NCBI GenBank assembly: GCA_027315225.1
Contig: DAHUYJ010000006.1
Location: forward strand, 1-44,923
Reading direction: 5' to 3'
DNA from: Candidatus Saccharimonadota bacterium
GTDB taxonomy: Bacteria > Patescibacteriota > Saccharimonadia > Saccharimonadales > UBA4665
Length of the DNA stretch: 44,923 nucleotides
Under the pieces are notes generated by a model, which had not been told where the DNA came from, made no database searches, and saw nothing but the letters and a program-made list of their open reading frames with translations. Of the stretch, positions 5,825 to 37,354 are shown piece by piece (the stretch's first letter is position 1; each line of letters starts with the position of its first letter). The position numbers and the translations under genes were made by a program.

Positions 5825-6454
5825 TCAGGTGACAAGTAAGTCGTTAGGTAATGACATGTAGATGCGGGTATCGGGCGCTCCCTCACTGCCCGCCGTCAGG
5901 CGCTCTCCGGGCTCTTTGGCGGCATCCTGAAAACCAAGTTTGTGATACACGTGAACTGCGCCGCCGTTGGAGGCCCACGTTTCCAGCCAGAAGTTTTTAA
6001 CGTCAAAGGTTGCGGCCGTCGCCGCGATGATCAGCCACGAGAACGGTGCTGCCAGGCCTTTTCCTTGATGAGATTCGCCAACCCTAACAGCAAAAGTTAT
6101 CTCGCCGCCTGGCACATGCGAACTGGAACCGGGTCCTGCCCAGCCATAACCAGCCAATTCTTGCGCGTCGCCGTCATTTTTAAGCAGCACGAAGACAGCT
6201 CTCCTCTTTTGCTGCAGCCAGTGCTTAGTAGCCGCCTGGTCCACAAACCGCTGTTTGGAATCACGGTAGCAATATTCCATGATGCCGGGCTCGTGCGACA
6301 TTGTAAGAATCTGGTCAGCCAGCCCCGGTGTCAGCCCGCTCCGAACCTCATACCCGCGACCAGCCAGCTTGTTCACGGCTTCATTACCGGATTGGCCCAG
6401 ACTCTTAGGCAACGGACTGACGGCATCGCTGAAGTCGTTGGGAAAAGCCCTCAC
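5825..6454 (-). CDS. GNAT-family N-acetyltransferase
   Basis: 209 residues from a GTG start that overlaps the glmM stop (GTGA). The central ITFAVRVGESHQGKGLA segment is the GNAT motif A with a Q-x-G-K-G-like acetyl-CoA pyrophosphate loop, followed by NFWLETWASNGGAVHVYHKLGF, the motif B region ending in the usual Y-x-K-x-G-F. The substrate is unknown. Coupling to glmM suggests co-expression but not a shared pathway. Confidence 0.8.
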   Translation of the reverse strand: MRAFPNDFSDAVSPLPKSLGQSGNEAVNKLAGRGYEVRSGLTPGLADQILTMSHEPGIMEYCYRDSKQRFVDQAATKHWLQQKRRAVFVLLKNDGDAQELAGYGWAGPGSSSHVPGGEITFAVRVGESHQGKGLAAPFSWLIIAATAATFDVKNFWLETWASNGGAVHVYHKLGFQDAAKEPGERLTAGSEGAPDTRIYMSLPNDLLVT

Positions 6455-7767
6455 TTAACTAACTCCGTTAATTCTTTGGCAATGCGCTCGGCGTGCTGCT
6501 GGGCATCTGATGCCTCTACCATTACTCTGGCCAACGGCTCAGTGCCGGAAGGACGGATCAGTAAACGCCCCTCGCCTGACAATTTATCGGCCTGTTCAGC
6601 TATGAATACTTTGACTTCAGAACGGTCTAACAGCGCTCTGTCCCGGAGCGGAATGTTGACCAGTGCTTGCGGCAATATTTCGACTTGATCACGCCACTCA
6701 GCCAGCGTTTTATCACCGGCAGCCAGCGCTTTGATAACCTGAACTGCAGACAAGAGACCGTCGCCGGTCTTTAAAAGTTTAGGAAAAACAATGTGCCCGG
6801 ATTGTTCGCCGCCCAGCTCAAATCCGGTTCGCGCCAAACCCTCCAGAACATAGCGGTCGCCGACTTTGGTCCGCTCCACCTTTATACCCTTCTTCTGCAA
6901 AGACTGTTCAAAGCCTATGTTGCTCATCACGGTCGTCACCACTCCTTTCAGCCGGTTGGTTACTGCCAGCAGGTAGAGCAGGTGATCGCCGTTCACTTCC
7001 CGACCCTGGTTATCAACCATAACCAGGCGATCAGCATCACCGTCCAGGGCAATACCTAGATCCAGGCCATTATCAAGCACTTCCTGGCACAAGGCCCTGA
7101 CGTCAGTCGCGCCGCAACCCTGGTTGATGTTGCGCCCCGCGGGACTGTCAAAGATCGGTGTGACCTTCGCGCCCAGGCGCTTAAACACGCGCTCCGCCAG
7201 ACCGCTGGCAGCGCCGTTGGCAGAATCAACAGCTATCCTCAGGTTGTCTGCATTCAAATCCCCGGCGCTCCCGACCAGAAAATCTTCGTAGCGGCCTGTC
7301 CGGTCCCGGTCAACCGCGGCGCGACCGGTTGTGCTATGCGCAGTGACACCTTTTTTGATCAAACCATTAAGCGCCGCTTCGCTGGCGTCCGACAGCTTGT
7401 CACCACGCCGGTCAAAGACTTTTACGCCGTTGTACTGGTAAGGATTGTGGCTGGCAGTTATCATGACGCCGGCTGCAAATTCATCGCCTTCGCGCGTTAA
7501 ATAGGCCAACCCCGGCGTTGGTATGACACCGATTGATGTCACGTTAGCGCCTACAGCTGTCAAGCCGTGCGTAACCGCCTCGACTAAACCGGCCGATGAC
7601 TCACGCGGATCAGAAGCGATGATAATTCGCTGTCCGGGTTTGGCAAATTGCGTACCCACGGACATGCCGATCTGCTCCGCTCCGATATCATCCAAAGGAT
7701 ACTGTCCAGCCAGCCCGCGCAAGCCGTCAGTGCCGAAGAGATCTCTATCCATGTTCAATATCCTCAT
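6451..7767 (-). CDS. glmM: Phosphoglucosamine mutase
   Basis: 438 residues. It converts glucosamine-6-phosphate to glucosamine-1-phosphate for UDP-GlcNAc synthesis. FGTDGLRG opens the protein, ITASHNP carries the phosphoserine (S106), DGDADRL is the Mg site and RPSGTEPLARV the phosphate-binding loop. The ATG at 7767 overlaps the aclA stop (ATGA). An internal ATG at 7752, preceded by GAGG, matches the usual family N terminus better and may be the true start. Confidence 0.93.
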   Translation of the reverse strand: MRILNMDRDLFGTDGLRGLAGQYPLDDIGAEQIGMSVGTQFAKPGQRIIIASDPRESSAGLVEAVTHGLTAVGANVTSIGVIPTPGLAYLTREGDEFAAGVMITASHNPYQYNGVKVFDRRGDKLSDASEAALNGLIKKGVTAHSTTGRAAVDRDRTGRYEDFLVGSAGDLNADNLRIAVDSANGAASGLAERVFKRLGAKVTPIFDSPAGRNINQGCGATDVRALCQEVLDNGLDLGIALDGDADRLVMVDNQGREVNGDHLLYLLAVTNRLKGVVTTVMSNIGFEQSLQKKGIKVERTKVGDRYVLEGLARTGFELGGEQSGHIVFPKLLKTGDGLLSAVQVIKALAAGDKTLAEWRDQVEILPQALVNIPLRDRALLDRSEVKVFIAEQADKLSGEGRLLIRPSGTEPLARVMVEASDAQQHAERIAKELTELVK

Positions 7768-9542
7768 TCAGGTATGTATGTAATGTCGTTGCTGCCGAGA
7801 CGTAGCAGACCCTCGTCATTGCGGCGTTGATCCAGGTAGTGGGCCGCCAAGCCGGCTGAACGGCTTAAGATAAAGATCGCGTTAAAGAATTCGATGCTAA
7901 CCAGTTCCTGGAGCTGCTCCTGGCCATAGTCAAGTTCTGATTCCAGCAGGTCAAGCATGATGGCCGCGATTGTTCCGTCGACATTAAGGATAAGGTTGCC
8001 TTTCTTGGCAGTTGTGACGTCTTCGACACCTCTGGCAAAGGCAAGGTACCGGTCGTCATTGCGATTACCGGCAAACTGTTCTGTAAGCGCTTTGACTCGC
8101 GGGTCAGGCATATCAATGCGGTATTTCTTATGACCGATACCCGGTATGATGCCGCCGTCGGTTGTAAAGCTTGCGACAAAATCTTTCGGCTTGGATGATC
8201 CACGCACGCCTTGCAGCCAGGCCCCGGCGGCGGCGTTGACCGCTCCGCCGAAGCGGGGACCGATAGTCAACAACCCGGCAGCCATGCTGGATGCCAAGTC
8301 CCGGCCGGCCCGGGCGGCCACTATGGTGTTCATCGCACCAGAGGTATACGGGCCATGGTCACTAAGCAGACGCAACACATAGTCCGTAAACTGGATAATC
8401 TTGGATGATTCCACGCGGTGTCCTAATAATAATGAGATAGTCAGTCCGGCCAAGGTGTTTTCGTTAACTGTCTCCAGCAAGTCTTTACCCAAAAGATGCA
8501 CGTCGTCTTGGATGTCACCGGAAACATGGCTAACGATCAGGCTTTTGCGGCGCTGTTTTATAGGCCGGTGATCTTGCGGCAACAGCTCGGCACCTACGCG
8601 TTCCAACTCAATTCTCAGCTCCGCGAATACGTCCGGGACCTTAGCGCCGGCGGCCCGCAGGGCGTTCTTTTTAGCTTGGGCTGTTTCATCCTGCCGGCTG
8701 GCCATAGCTTTGGCATGGCCGAATTGTGGCGGTTCGTCGAATAGCTCAGCGACTGTTCCGGCAATATATGCTATAACCGGCTTAGCAATTTTGCCGTCGG
8801 AGATCAGCTTGGCGATGGCGTATTCATCGTCGCCACCCAGCTCGCCGAAGTAGACGATACGCTCGGTCTGTTCGTCGGCTTCAGCCAGCAGAAAAGCTTG
8901 GGCCGGTGTGGTAATCGGGTTACGGTCGCCGCCCAATGCTACCGCGAAGGATACGCCAAGACCGGCGCCGGTAACGATATGTATTAGTTCATTGACCATG
9001 CCGCCGGAAGTCGACACGACCGCCGCCCTGCCCGGCGCGAAGATACCGGCCGCCACAATCTGCGCGTATTGCGTGCCGCCGATGGCGCCAAGCTTGAAGA
9101 GTCCCGGAACAAGCACGCCGACAGAGGCCGGACCGGCCACCAATATGTCTTTTTTGGCGGCTTCGGCGGCCACTTCCAGAGCATGGGCCTCGGGCACCTG
9201 TTCTGCAAAAATATTCGCTACGCGGAGTTTGGGAAGCAAGGCAAAAGCCTCTTTCATGCCGGCCAAAACCCGGCGGGCGGACTGTACGTTAAGCAGCGCC
9301 GTAGCTTCATCCCGGTATTTTTTGGGCACCGCCTGGAGTTGTGGGTACACCGGAACCATCACTTCGCTCTGGCCCCAAAAGTACCGTTCCTGCTTACGCC
9401 CGCCGCCGACTATGGCGACAACGCTGGGTTTATCGCGACCCAGGCAATAATCATAATCGATCATGGACTGTATGATGCCGGGGTGCGAGCCCAGGCATAT
9501 GGTAATCGGCTGGAGACCGCGCAAATCCGTACCTTTACTCAT
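7764..9542 (-). CDS. aclA: ATP-citrate lyase, large subunit (CoA-ligase plus citrate-synthase-like domains)
   Basis: 592 residues aligning from memory with the C-terminal part of human ACLY and with AclA of green sulfur bacteria. The N-terminal half is the succinyl-CoA-synthetase-like region; QFGHAKA holds the phosphorylated histidine, H276. The C-terminal half is citrate-synthase-like, with SDHGPYTSGA (H396) and GIGHKKYRI (H471), and it ends with the family-typical ITYIPE. With AclB it would cleave citrate using ATP and CoA to acetyl-CoA and oxaloacetate. It starts 8 nt inside aclB. Succinyl-CoA synthetase is excluded by the citrate-synthase half; citryl-CoA synthetase likewise lacks that half. 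Confidence 0.92.
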   Translation of the reverse strand: MSKGTDLRGLQPITICLGSHPGIIQSMIDYDYCLGRDKPSVVAIVGGGRKQERYFWGQSEVMVPVYPQLQAVPKKYRDEATALLNVQSARRVLAGMKEAFALLPKLRVANIFAEQVPEAHALEVAAEAAKKDILVAGPASVGVLVPGLFKLGAIGGTQYAQIVAAGIFAPGRAAVVSTSGGMVNELIHIVTGAGLGVSFAVALGGDRNPITTPAQAFLLAEADEQTERIVYFGELGGDDEYAIAKLISDGKIAKPVIAYIAGTVAELFDEPPQFGHAKAMASRQDETAQAKKNALRAAGAKVPDVFAELRIELERVGAELLPQDHRPIKQRRKSLIVSHVSGDIQDDVHLLGKDLLETVNENTLAGLTISLLLGHRVESSKIIQFTDYVLRLLSDHGPYTSGAMNTIVAARAGRDLASSMAAGLLTIGPRFGGAVNAAAGAWLQGVRGSSKPKDFVASFTTDGGIIPGIGHKKYRIDMPDPRVKALTEQFAGNRNDDRYLAFARGVEDVTTAKKGNLILNVDGTIAAIMLDLLESELDYGQEQLQELVSIEFFNAIFILSRSAGLAAHYLDQRRNDEGLLRLGSNDITYIPE

Positions 9543-10725
9543 GACCCACTCCCTGCAATGCCTCCGTAACGGCCGCGGTCAACGGTGTTTCCGGACTATG
9601 GACGGCTCCCAGCAAGCCGTGCTTATTAAGCACGGCCTCCATTTGGGCGAGACCCTCTTCCTGGTTGGGGCCGCCGCGGCGAACAAAGACCTTTACCTGT
9701 TGCGCACGCAGCTTATCGGCAACTTCTTCAATAGCCTGTAGTACGCCAGCAAACGTCTTAGCAATGTCCGTAAAGTTCGCTACTGCGCCACCTATGAATA
9801 GCACCTTCTGTTTGGCTGATGATTTAAGCAAAAGCTTAAGCACAGCTTCTGTGTATAAGTACGTCTCTTCGGTGTTGGGGTTTCCGCTATACTCGCCGTA
9901 GTTGGCAAGCTGCTTGCCATATCCCTGGTTGTAGACCTCGTCGGCCACCACTACGCTGGCGCCGCCGCCGGAAAGCAGCAAAAAGATGCTCCCGTCCGGT
10001 TCTAGAACGCTCAGCTTAAGCGAAGCCGGAGAGTTGGCGTCCAGCTCCTGGACATTGAGCTCTTCCTGCGTAAGATTATGCCCGGTATGACGACGCAAGT
10101 CATCCGCGTCCCAATTATCAACAAAAAACGCTGCCGTGTCATCAACTTCCACCGCGGCATCCAGCATTTTAAGGCCAGCGTCGCTTATCAAGTACGGGTT
10201 GATTTCTGTAAAGACAAAATAGTTGCCGGCAAAAACCGCTGCCAGTTGCTGCAACTGCTTGTCACTAATACCCGTTTCTGCCGCCAGATGTCCCCAATCG
10301 GTTTCGCTGTTCAGGCGTACTCTCTTGAGGCTTTCGGCGTGCTGCTCAATGTCCACGCCGCCAATCGTTGAATACTGCAGGGTCAGCCCCTCCCGGTCAG
10401 ACAGTAGACCCAGATAGCGCTCATCAGTTGGAACATGGCTATCCATAGGCTCAACGATCAGCCAACGGTACCCTTTGTCACTCAGGATTTTAACGGCTTT
10501 GGCCAGGTCGCCGTGTTGCACATCCAAAAGTACCAGTCCCTTTTTGAACCGGCCTTTTACGCCTTCGTCTACCTTGACGACAAAGCTGCTATCCGCCGAA
10601 GCTGCCTCTTGCAGCTGAGAGTTCAGGGACAAACTTGAGTCAACCGACCATCCTTTGTACGGCAAACCCAGGGCTTTGGAAATAATAATCTTAGCCCTAT
10701 ACTCGGACAATTTCTGACGCGGCAT
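9535..10725 (-). CDS. aclB: ATP-citrate lyase, ATP-grasp subunit
   Basis: 396 residues, the usual length of AclB. It has an N-terminal ATP-grasp fold (VVKVDEGVKGRFKKGLV near residue 48; FTEINPYLI near 180) and a C-terminal citrate-binding region with LSGGGAS and the family-typical RRGGPNQEEGL near residue 348, which matches the corresponding part of ACLY. It phosphorylates the catalytic histidine of AclA. Gene order aclB-aclA is that of Chlorobium. A TATGAT box ends 6 nt before the ATG. Confidence 0.9.
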   Translation of the reverse strand: MPRQKLSEYRAKIIISKALGLPYKGWSVDSSLSLNSQLQEAASADSSFVVKVDEGVKGRFKKGLVLLDVQHGDLAKAVKILSDKGYRWLIVEPMDSHVPTDERYLGLLSDREGLTLQYSTIGGVDIEQHAESLKRVRLNSETDWGHLAAETGISDKQLQQLAAVFAGNYFVFTEINPYLISDAGLKMLDAAVEVDDTAAFFVDNWDADDLRRHTGHNLTQEELNVQELDANSPASLKLSVLEPDGSIFLLLSGGGASVVVADEVYNQGYGKQLANYGEYSGNPNTEETYLYTEAVLKLLLKSSAKQKVLFIGGAVANFTDIAKTFAGVLQAIEEVADKLRAQQVKVFVRRGGPNQEEGLAQMEAVLNKHGLLGAVHSPETPLTAAVTEALQGVGHE

Positions 10726-10778: not shown

Positions 10779-11045
10779 TTACGCGGCCGGTTCCAGCGGG
10801 GGCGGCCCGCCGTCATCCTCAAACTTCGATAGGTCTACAGCCTCCGGACCGGAGAGTCTAAACCCTCTCGGCACCCGGCCGGCTCTGGGCGTCAGGGATG
10901 TTAGTTCTCTGGGTTGCTCAACTGTATCTGCCGGAGCATCAATTGGACAACCTTCATTCATCATCCTTGTGACCTCGTGATCGTGTCCAGTAGAGCCGCC
11001 AAGAGGGGGCTCTGGAAGGCCTGGAATTTCACTTCTCATATGCAT
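10779..11045 (-). CDS. Small acidic proline-rich hypothetical protein
   Basis: 88 residues, no recognised family, no membrane segment; rich in Pro, Gly, Glu and Asp, so probably largely disordered. It is treated as real because a perfect AGGAGG lies 10 nt before the ATG and a TACAAT box lies further upstream, on the side divergent from sodA. No function is proposed. Confidence 0.55.
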   Translation of the reverse strand: MHMRSEIPGLPEPPLGGSTGHDHEVTRMMNEGCPIDAPADTVEQPRELTSLTPRAGRVPRGFRLSGPEAVDLSKFEDDGGPPPLEPAA

Positions 11046-11061: not shown

Positions 11062-11193
11062 TTGCGCCTTAATGAAAAGGTATTTTATTGTAGCACCAGA
11101 CGGCGCCGGCTGCAATGTGATGCTGGTCTTAAATTACCGCGGTGCCACTACGCGCTTAGGCCGAACCCATTTCGACACGGATCAAATAGGGTT

Positions 11194-11199
11194 TACAAT
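11194..11199 (+). promoter_or_regulatory. -10 box of sodA
   Basis: TACAAT lies 34 nt before the sodA ATG, leaving a leader that contains the GGGAGG ribosome binding site at 11224-11229. Confidence 0.5.
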
Positions 11200-11233
11200 A
11201 GAACTATTAGAAAAGAATATTACGGGAGGGCCT

Positions 11234-11836
11234 ATGTTTACGCTACCGGATCTGCCATACGCTTATGACGCACTTGGCAAGTACATCAGCAAAGACATCA
11301 TGGAGCTACACCACAGCAAGCACCATCAAAGCTATGTCGACAAACTCAACGCCGCGCTGGAAAAAGCGCCCGAATTACAGAGTAGGTCTGTCGAAGACCT
11401 GATCAGCGACCTCGACAGTGTACCCGAAGAGATTCGCACCGCTGTCCGCAACCATGGTGGCGGCCATTATAACCACACGCACTTCTGGACTTGGATGTCG
11501 CCAGAGGGCGGCCAGGAACCAAACGGCCAGTTGGCCAAAGCTATAAAGGCCAAGTATGGCAGCTTCCAGGAGTTTATGGACGTCTTTGGCGCCAAGGCGC
11601 TTGGCGTTTTCGGCAGTGGCTGGGCCTGGCTGCAGCCCGACCTCTCTATCGTTACCACCCCCAACCAGGATTCCCCGCTCAATAGCGGCCAACCGGAACC
11701 GATCCTGGGCCTGGACGTCTGGGAGCACGCCTACTACCTGGACTACACCTACAAGCGCGGCGATTACATCAAGGCCTGGTGGAATGTCGTCAACTGGCAG
11801 GAAGTCGAACGCCGCTTCGCGGAAATTTCAGACTAG
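11234..11836 (+). CDS. sodA: Superoxide dismutase, Mn/Fe type
   Basis: 200 residues from the ATG at 11234, chosen because GGGAGG precedes it and the protein then begins at the family N terminus ([17 protein letters not shown]). Metal ligands are visible: H in [12 protein letters not shown] in [10 protein letters not shown], and D and H in [13 protein letters not shown]. The GGHxNH form and NQD before the LGLDVWEH block suggest manganese or cambialistic use rather than strict iron. It converts superoxide to hydrogen peroxide and oxygen. No signal peptide. Confidence 0.95.
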
Positions 11837-31529: not shown

Positions 31530-32723
31530 TTACACAGCAAGCGCAGGTTTACCCACCCATATAATGCTTGGGTCATCAGCTGCTGCTGCACGTCTCTCAT
31601 CCCGTTGTTCTGCGTATCGGGCCGCTGTCTTCTTGAGGCCGCCCATGAAAGCCAAAGTACGCTCGCGTGCCCTCTCGGCCTCATCATCAAGGCCTTCCAG
31701 TGAGACAAACCCCAGCCGTTTGAGTACCGGGCTGAGGATTTTGTCATGGTGAATCTCAAGGTCGTAGACCCCGGCTTCGGCCACAATGCCAGCATGCGTC
31801 CAAAAATCCCTGATACCGGTTCCGGGCATCTGGAAGCCGCGGATCTGCTTTTCAAGCGCCTTCACGACTGTTGATGGGTCAATCTGCGTTGCGGCTTCGG
31901 TCAAATCACGATAAAAGGCGAAGTGCTTGTTCTCGTCACCGGCGATGCGGGTCATGATAGTACGGGCAACCTGGCGCACATATGACTCCCTATGTTCCGG
32001 ATCCAGGCTATCGGCTTTTACGGGCTCTACACTGGCCAGGGCCGTACCGTCTTTGCTTAAGCGCACAATCGCCTCGTCCTGCTCTACAGTGTCAGCAATT
32101 AGTTTTCCGGTATTCATGTGGCTGATGCGCGTAGCCAATTCCTGAATTGTGACGTACACGAAAGCTTCGGTTGCAGAGGGAGGCTCAGGAACTTCTGCAG
32201 TAATAATTTGGGCCATCCTGTCGCGATCCAGTTGCACTGGATCGACCAGACGACCTGTCGTCATGTACGCACGCATAACTTCGGAATGCCGATCTTCTTC
32301 GCCTGTCCAGATCCTGTTCCAAAAGTTCAAGGCCTCATTCCCCCCGAACTTCCTGTTGATAGTCTCGGAGTACCAAGGCAAGTTGTCTTCGGTTAAGAGG
32401 CCGAGTAAGAGGGCGCTGACGGCCGCCTGCGGCAGGGTGGCTTTGTCCTGATCTTTATGCCAGTCATAATTAGGGGCGAAGTTTTGGCCAACCGTCCATG
32501 GCACCATCAAAGCCGGGGTCCACTGGTCTGAGTTATCGCCCATATATGTAGTCACGGTTGGGAACTCATCCCTAAGTGCAGGATCCCTGAACCGTGCAGG
32601 ATTAATGTGGCGGTTGATCAGCGGAATAGCCACGTCTGTCAGTTGCGGCAGTAACGCTTTATCGACCTCGGGATTAATGGGAGGGACTTCGTCCAAGGGG
32701 GTTAGTTCTGCTCGTTCTGTCAT
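31530..32723 (-). CDS. Acyl-ACP desaturase (soluble diiron)
   Basis: 397 residues from ATG 32723. Both diiron half-sites are present and spaced as in plant stearoyl-ACP delta-9 desaturase: E112 (LLTEDNLP), E143-x2-H146 (GEEDRH), E195 (TIQELATR) and E264-x2-H267 (GDENKH). It would insert a double bond into ACP-bound fatty acid using O2 and reduced ferredoxin. It lies 4 nt after the pilin-like gene and before an ABC exporter. No ferredoxin or fatty acid synthesis gene is in the window. Confidence 0.9.
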   Translation of the reverse strand: MTERAELTPLDEVPPINPEVDKALLPQLTDVAIPLINRHINPARFRDPALRDEFPTVTTYMGDNSDQWTPALMVPWTVGQNFAPNYDWHKDQDKATLPQAAVSALLLGLLTEDNLPWYSETINRKFGGNEALNFWNRIWTGEEDRHSEVMRAYMTTGRLVDPVQLDRDRMAQIITAEVPEPPSATEAFVYVTIQELATRISHMNTGKLIADTVEQDEAIVRLSKDGTALASVEPVKADSLDPEHRESYVRQVARTIMTRIAGDENKHFAFYRDLTEAATQIDPSTVVKALEKQIRGFQMPGTGIRDFWTHAGIVAEAGVYDLEIHHDKILSPVLKRLGFVSLEGLDDEAERARERTLAFMGGLKKTAARYAEQRDERRAAAADDPSIIWVGKPALAV

Positions 32724-32727
32724 GAAG

Positions 32728-32889
32728 TCAATTTTTATGGTTAGCCGTCCTGTTGTCAACTATATTATTCTTGACATGCTTATTGGCGTTGTACACGTAC
32801 CAGCCCACGAACGCTATCATGGCTATGATGATAACTACCAACAAACTTTCGATAATTAAACCGCTCTGATTTTTGCTGAGCTTATTCAT
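32728..32889 (-). CDS. Pilin-like small membrane protein, 53 residues
   Basis: A short gene found by translating the gap: it starts MNKLSKNQSG, then LIIESLLVVIIIAMIAFVGW and YVYNANK. A basic N terminus, a Gly followed by a hydrophobic stretch with Glu at position four, and one membrane helix are the features of type IV prepilin N termini, here without a globular domain. The Glu is one position off the usual +5. Its ATG lies inside the palindromic promoter at 32887-32910. It stops 4 nt before the desaturase start, so the two are probably one operon. Confidence 0.7.
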   Translation of the reverse strand: MNKLSKNQSGLIIESLLVVIIIAMIAFVGWYVYNANKHVKNNIVDNRTANHKN

Positions 32890-36451: not shown

Positions 36452-37354
36452 TCAATGTCCGAACGATGTGATGAGTTTTCGCGCGATAGGCGTGAGTACT
36501 CTTTGTGTTGCCATATATGCCGGAACGGCTTGCGTGCGGAGCAGGAAGGGCAGATGTCCATATGTGTTACGCATCATGTAGTCGATGCCTGCCGATATGC
36601 GCTTGTCCGACGGGGTCGGGCGCAGGCCCGACCGCTCCAAAAGGCGCGGATCCAGGGACATAATTGAGATTGATTGGCTGATTTTTCCTAAGGGCGACAA
36701 CACTTTGGGAGTTTGAAAGCGAAAGACGGCCCGGGACATCTCACGGCTGGCTTTTGTCCGAAGTAGTTGGTCACCGCCCAGCCTGTCCTCCCAGTAGCGC
36801 TTGAAGTCCTTCAGGGTAGGGGGAAGTACGTCCGGATGTATGCCGAAAAACGTTCCAAAAACTTTAACGTCACGGTAAAGTCCCTGCTCTTCCTGGGCCG
36901 TGAACGCTGGCGGGTTCCAGCGCCGTTTCGCTTCACACGCCCCCTGAAAAACCGCGGCTAGCACCCAGGTTTGGGCCTCAGCGTTATTGGCATGATAGGA
37001 TATGTCGTCTTTTTTGCCGCGCACCGTCCCATGAAAAGAATGTATGCGCCGCGCCATGTCATAGGCTTCCTGCTCGTTGCCGAAGACGAGCACTATGGAC
37101 GCGTGAATCGTCCCGAGCAAGCGGCTCCAGGCATGACTTTGGAAATTACTGTGCTTGCTGACCGCCGCCGCAATACGATCGTCCATGACGGTCAGGCCGG
37201 CGATATACGGAAAAAACGCGAAAGCCGCAGGTTCAACAAGCCGGCGGATAGCGCTCTCCCGTGTAAACGGGAAATCCGCTGCCTGCCGCGTCGGGCCTAC
37301 GTTGACCGAGGCGGGGTTGTCCGCGTGTCTTGCGGAATCAGTTGCTGCTACCAT
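36452..37354 (-). CDS. DUF2236 oxygenase-like protein (MpaB/latex-clearing-protein type)
   Basis: 300 residues. SAIRRLVEPAAFAFFPYIAG, then RIHSFHGTVRGKKDDISYHANNAEAQTWVLAAVF and the acidic region with LYRDVKVFGTFFGIHPDVLPPTLKDFKRYW follow the DUF2236 pattern (b-type haem proteins including rubber oxygenase Lcp and fungal MpaB). Candidate haem ligands are the histidines in this segment. The physiological substrate is unknown. TATTAA ends 6 nt before the ATG. Confidence 0.75.
   Translation of the reverse strand: MVAATDSARHADNPASVNVGPTRQAADFPFTRESAIRRLVEPAAFAFFPYIAGLTVMDDRIAAAVSKHSNFQSHAWSRLLGTIHASIVLVFGNEQEAYDMARRIHSFHGTVRGKKDDISYHANNAEAQTWVLAAVFQGACEAKRRWNPPAFTAQEEQGLYRDVKVFGTFFGIHPDVLPPTLKDFKRYWEDRLGGDQLLRTKASREMSRAVFRFQTPKVLSPLGKISQSISIMSLDPRLLERSGLRPTPSDKRISAGIDYMMRNTYGHLPFLLRTQAVPAYMATQRVLTPIARKLITSFGH

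Follow-up and report, generated by a model that had tools for sequence, protein, structure and literature searches.

The window, by which we mean the whole stretch of 44,923 nucleotides analyzed here, encodes a two-subunit ATP-citrate lyase (ACL) whose genes overlap a gene for phosphoglucosamine mutase (glmM), which in turn overlaps a gene for a GNAT acetyltransferase. We propose, with a probability of roughly 0.57, that ACL cleaves imported citrate and supplies acetyl-CoA for amino-sugar (UDP-GlcNAc) synthesis. An ultrasmall epibiont without a TCA cycle, pyruvate dehydrogenase (PDH) or fatty-acid synthesis still has to obtain acetyl-CoA, which is spent on each GlcNAc and MurNAc of the wall that it builds for itself. 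The bacterium of the window is probably host-dependent. A route from citrate to amino sugars would, if true, identify one specific nutrient that the cell takes from its host or the environment and account for the patchy occurrence of ACL in Patescibacteria without carbon fixation, and it gives a directly testable prediction. ACL is often used as a marker of carbon fixation in metagenome surveys.

ACL in Patescibacteria/CPR bacteria is already known and not new in itself. Passages of two published papers describe an enrichment of aclAB in Saccharimonadia (PMC12577380) and a two-subunit ACL in a Gracilibacterium, with citrate scavenging as its proposed role (PMC6851277). What is new is that enzymes of citrate cleavage recur in operons for amino sugars and that, at one site, phosphotransacetylase (PTA) stands in their place. 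No mention of a link between citrate cleavage and amino-sugar operons was found in the openly licensed papers that were searched. The genes of the cluster, and a small open reading frame (ORF) directly upstream of it, are the following:

10779-11045, - strand: small ORF of 88 aa directly upstream of aclB, of uncertain nature
9535-10725, - strand: aclB-type small subunit (ATP-grasp and citrate-binding domain), 396 aa; assigned from Pfam Citrate_bind (PF16114, E = 9e-60), PDB matches and alignment
7764-9542, - strand: aclA-type large subunit (CoA-binding, phospho-His CoA-ligase and citryl-CoA lyase domains), 592 aa; assigned from PF00285/PF00549, PDB matches, alignment and motifs
6451-7767, - strand: glmM, phosphoglucosamine mutase, 438 aa; TIGR01455 at 449.4 bits against an equivalog cut-off of 447.55
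5825-6454, - strand: GNAT acetyltransferase, 209 aa; assigned from Pfam Acetyltransf_3/Acetyltransf_1, its place next to GlmM in relatives and an AF2 model

The sequence-only reading had described a complete two-subunit ACL with all catalytic blocks in both subunits and an 8-nt gene overlap. Both ORFs were found on the - strand with the full domain set, and their coordinates agree with that overlap. AclB matched the ATP-grasp model PF24948 at 5e-20, which is under the cut-off of that model, and in the PDB it matched the ACL of Methanosaeta concilii (6hxi_A, 5e-64) and human ACLY (4e-53), the alignment to the solved structures starting at residue 46. AclA carries the Citrate_synt C-domain (PF00285), Ligase_CoA (PF00549) and Succ_CoA_lig, and aligned over nearly its full length with 6hxi_B (2e-106) and human ACLY (6e-106). 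Its lyase domain is fused within the 7764-9542 reading frame and is not, as in the split citryl-CoA synthetase/lyase system, the product of a separate gene of approximately 240-260 aa. All 62 AclA sequences collected have the phospho-His motif QFGHA as well as the GIGH[KR] block of the lyase, and 61 of them have N[VI]DG; the window AclA has QFGHA, GIGHK, and NVDG. Among 73 AclB-type sequences the citrate-binding motifs ANFT and RRGG were found in 71 and 70, respectively; the window AclB has both, together with the YSG and ExNP motifs. Judged by domains, alignments and motifs, AclA and AclB are almost certainly a genuine two-subunit ATP-citrate lyase.

The patescibacterial AclA and AclB are divergent and share a long stem, and to our knowledge no member has been assayed. 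They might for this reason be a CoA ligase that acts on a different acid, for instance succinate or another tricarboxylate, in which case the linkage to glm genes would reflect a different product. We consider this very improbable, as the citrate-binding domain, the phospho-His and the active-site motifs of citryl-CoA lyase are nearly invariant, and succinyl-CoA synthetase has no lyase domain.

The genome that contains the window is 966 kb in size, 97.2% complete and 1.3% contaminated, and the nearest named ACL loci belong to Candidatus Saccharibacteria MAGs, in line with the earlier assignment to a Patescibacterium. A block running from PfkB-SAHH through GNAT-GlmM-ACL-SOD-response regulator-histidine kinase to TrmD is common to three other independent Saccharibacteria MAGs. 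A binning error, which would have undone that assignment, was ruled out because the locus is syntenic in these MAGs; approximately 60 patescibacterial ACL loci were collected in total. PF16114 was found in 10 of 99 relatives; in a phylum-wide set, 25 of 380 genomes had it. The named carriers of ACL include Saccharibacteria, Levyibacteria, Woesebacteria, Roizmanbacteria, Magasanikbacteria, one Parcubacterium, and one Desulfofervidaceae MAG. The aclA gene was frameshifted in UBA6040 (L017/L042, 9716-11478) and split into two ORFs in a Magasanikbacterium (L075), from either sequencing error or decay.

A phylogeny of AclA had been suggested as a way to find the donor of the genes. In our tree, a quick one without bootstrap, most patescibacterial AclA fell into one strongly supported, long-stemmed clade that contains neither the M. 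concilii nor the human enzyme. Four divergent patescibacterial ACL (L099-L102), one with a very long branch, were placed outside this clade and nearer to the outgroups. No donor outside Patescibacteria was visible in a limited sample that consisted of the PDB sequences and one Desulfofervidaceae locus; no viral source was found among viral contigs. In G030 (L005) and G050 (L007), two genomes of one genus, the ACL genes belong to different clades and occupy different loci, a pattern suggestive of horizontal exchange within Patescibacteria.

Metabolism was assessed by targeted profile searches. Among the 99 relatives the citrate synthase fold was found only as the domain of ACL itself, in the same ten genomes, and no aconitase (PF00330) was found in the 97.2% complete window genome. 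This bears out the earlier statement that the bacterium has no full TCA cycle. Since no citrate-forming enzymes were detected, the citrate is most likely external and cleavage is the sensible direction, as the sequence-only reading had also held in deriving acetyl-CoA from scavenged citrate. The searches for a source of acetyl-CoA covered PDH E2, PF02775, and PTA. Neither PDH E2, nor enzymes with PF02775 (pyruvate:ferredoxin oxidoreductase, pyruvate oxidase), nor PTA was found in the window genome; PTA exceeded the cut-off in two of the 99 relatives. ACL is the marker enzyme of the reductive TCA cycle, and a role in CO2 fixation had to be considered. With both aconitase and the PF02775 oxidoreductase subunit absent from the window genome and no internal route to citrate found, this role was rejected, and we give it next to no chance.

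The acetyl-CoA might instead feed lipid acylation through nearby acyltransferases and a desaturase, as had been proposed from the sequence. The window does contain an FA_desaturase_2 (PF03405) gene at 31530-32759, and genes with Acyl_transf_3 adjoin ACL in L047 and L036. A search for fatty acid synthesis genes found no beta-ketoacyl synthase in the window genome and a match in only one of the 99 relatives, and a flow of acetyl-CoA into new fatty acids is for that reason not expected. The desaturase gene belongs to a different cluster, at a distance of approximately 21 kb, and with no beta-ketoacyl synthase detected in the genome its product would have acquired lipids as substrates. Proteins with Acyl_transf_3 frequently O-acetylate sugars, which favors an envelope role over a lipid role. 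The lipid proposal was rejected on the missing beta-ketoacyl synthase, and we regard it as highly unlikely.

The arrangement of the genes argues for a role in amino-sugar synthesis. The aclB, aclA, glmM, and GNAT genes overlap by 8, 4, and 4 nt and form one cluster, by gene arrangement an apparent operon. With glmM and a GNAT in the cluster, the acetyl-CoA is most likely meant for N-acetylation of glucosamine phosphate. Terminator-like sites were no more frequent in the region than in shuffled sequences; promoter-like sites numbered 10 against 3.7 (sd 2.4) in shuffles and were mostly located within genes, and were therefore uninformative. The 88-aa ORF upstream of aclB has a strong Shine-Dalgarno sequence, and at its C-terminus it weakly resembles an 87-aa ORF in the corresponding position of L014. 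The window also encodes Ddl and a Mur-ligase-like protein, and the glmS gene of the genome is found on contig C32. A Fe/Mn superoxide dismutase (11072-11836; with approximately 54 additional N-terminal residues, the annotated start probably being wrong) and an MPAB/Lcp-type, rubber oxygenase-like protein (36452-37354) were also found in the window and suggest an oxygen-exposed lifestyle.

The GNAT gene adjoins glmM in all relatives seen (L012, L013, L014, L149, and L150), and the pair is kept both with and without ACL, the latter in G019 (L149). Not one of the 99 relatives has a canonical GlmU above the cut-off. A replacement acetyltransferase is therefore needed, which fits the role proposed for GNAT, and we regard it as a candidate glucosamine-phosphate N-acetyltransferase. 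The same absence leaves uridylyl transfer in the window genome without an assigned enzyme, which counts against the model. So does the GNAT itself: its AF2 model (pLDDT 71, a modest model) has a GNAT fold that is like GNAT proteins at large (SpeG, AAC(6')) and not specifically like a GlcN-phosphate acetyltransferase, and neither sequence nor fold searches gave a substrate-specific match, only general GNAT relatives. In G005 (L150), glmM-GNAT and ACL were found on different contigs, which we also counted against an amino-sugar role.

The ACL-negative genome G019 (L149) has the same syntenic block, and there glmM-GNAT is preceded by PTA genes. These are in tandem (L149, 7276-9014), an intact copy of 279 aa and a second copy broken over assembly Ns. 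G088 has a single short PTA-like copy (L170, 1438-2337). The PTA-like proteins of both genomes are short (279-299 aa) and lack the N-terminus of known PTA, and are putative enzymes. As far as the sequences tell, two unrelated enzymes predicted to make acetyl-CoA hold the same site in front of glmM-GNAT. GlmM orthologs were present in four of seven genomes with ACL against one of 53 without; the sole exception was the PTA genome G019. The association of GlmM with ACL had a hypergeometric P of 3e-4, uncorrected for kinship.

Linkage to genes of amino-sugar synthesis was found in other Patescibacteria as well. In a sister clade of ACL the glmS gene directly follows ACL in L024-L026 and L028, with one gene between in L047, and in another clade it lies two genes downstream of ACL (L036). 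In L025 and L026 ACL is located between a ManC-like gene and glmS, and in G000:C32 (L159) a ManC-like gene and glmS are near each other without ACL. Next to ACL in L025 lies a 348-aa nucleotidyltransferase that was considered as a GlmU-like enzyme; it proved to be ManC-like and was left out of the counts. A split citryl-CoA synthetase (two genes) with a separate citryl-CoA lyase was found in approximately 11 of 380 Patescibacteria genomes (L108-L118). The set of L109 (7177-8406, 8409-9326, and 9331-10071) matched 6hxq_B at 3e-72 and 6hxp at 1e-42; the PDB confirmation applies to L109 only. In five split-set loci (L108, L110, L114, L115, and L116) the run also contains glmS; in L114, L115, and L116 it is the next gene upstream, in the same orientation. 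The runs of L108, L110, and L114 include yvcK, of a UDP-GlcNAc-binding protein family, and those of L108 and L114 a GNAT gene; the gene order in L114 is glmS-ccsA-ccsB-ccl-GNAT-yvcK-archaeal-type glmU.

We collapsed the loci by hand into 34 lineages. A same-strand glmS or glmM gene at a distance of no more than two genes was found in four of these against 0.16 expected (P approximately 2e-5), a value that is only indicative since the target genes were picked after the window had been seen. The adjacency could be incidental, a product of operon shuffling in small genomes, with a GNAT that has nothing to do with GlmM and acetylates proteins or small molecules. In favor of this explanation are the manual count of lineages, made once the pattern had been noticed, and the lack of a specific match for GNAT. 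We nevertheless find it quite improbable, given four separate arrangements against 0.16 expected and two non-homologous acetyl-CoA-forming enzymes at one glmM-GNAT site.

Most ACL lineages had no glm neighbor, which we counted against an amino-sugar role. ACL may accordingly be a general scavenging enzyme for carbon and amino-acid supply: the acetyl-CoA from imported citrate would serve acetylations of every kind and the oxaloacetate would yield aspartate or pyruvate, the linkage to glm genes being one outcome of several. General scavenging has been proposed for a Gracilibacterium in a passage of PMC6851277, and citrate cross-feeding has been published (PMC13014828). A class I/II aminotransferase gene, a possible oxaloacetate sink, adjoins ACL in Levyibacteria L034 (5576-6778) and lies two genes downstream in L041 (10767-11960), which also fits general scavenging. 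This explanation leaves the repeated linkage to glmM, glmS, yvcK, and GNAT and the exchange of ACL for PTA unexplained, and we consider it rather unlikely. The neighborhood differs again in one group of Saccharibacteria (L054-L058, L063, L068, L071, and L074), in which conserved genes follow aclA and RNase Y is located upstream; in L055 the genes after aclA are homologs of type IV pilus pilB, pilC, and pilM, with no evident metabolic link.

In the amino-sugar model that we prefer, AclAB would use CoA and ATP to cleave imported citrate to acetyl-CoA and oxaloacetate. GNAT would use the acetyl-CoA to acetylate the glucosamine phosphate formed by GlmS and GlmM, and the product would be turned into UDP-GlcNAc and further into cell-envelope glycans, while oxaloacetate would probably leave by transamination to aspartate. 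Citrate import, the direction of flux, the substrate of GNAT, co-transcription of the cluster and the fate of oxaloacetate are parts of the model that we infer. A wider proposal, which we put forward tentatively, is that host-dependent Patescibacteria have more than once turned citrate cleavage, by ACL and independently by citryl-CoA synthetase/lyase, into a dedicated source of acetyl-CoA for UDP-GlcNAc and the cell wall, that GNAT replaces the acetyltransferase of GlmU in the lineage of the window, and that the envelope would thereby depend on citrate drawn from the host or its surroundings.

Compared to the ACL of M. concilii (PDB 6hxi/6znw) and the fused human ACLY, the window ACL has the same domain order and the same catalytic and citrate-binding motifs. 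It differs from both in belonging to a separate, long-stemmed patescibacterial clade and in its setting, an amino-sugar cluster of a genome in which neither citrate synthase nor aconitase was detected. The Gracilibacterium BD1-5 (PMC6851277) and Saccharimonadia (PMC12577380) have a two-subunit ACL as found here; the passages on ACL in these two papers mention neither a link to glmM, glmS, yvcK, or GNAT nor an exchange with PTA. The passage on the Gracilibacterium calls its ACL archaeal-like (PMC6851277), whereas most of the ACL that we collected form a clade of their own. The citryl-CoA synthetase and lyase of Hydrogenobacter (PDB 6hxq, 6hxp) carry out the same net reaction as the window ACL. 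The Hydrogenobacter system is split, while the window ACL is the fused two-gene form; three-gene homologs of the Hydrogenobacter system are found in other Patescibacteria, five of them linked to glmS.
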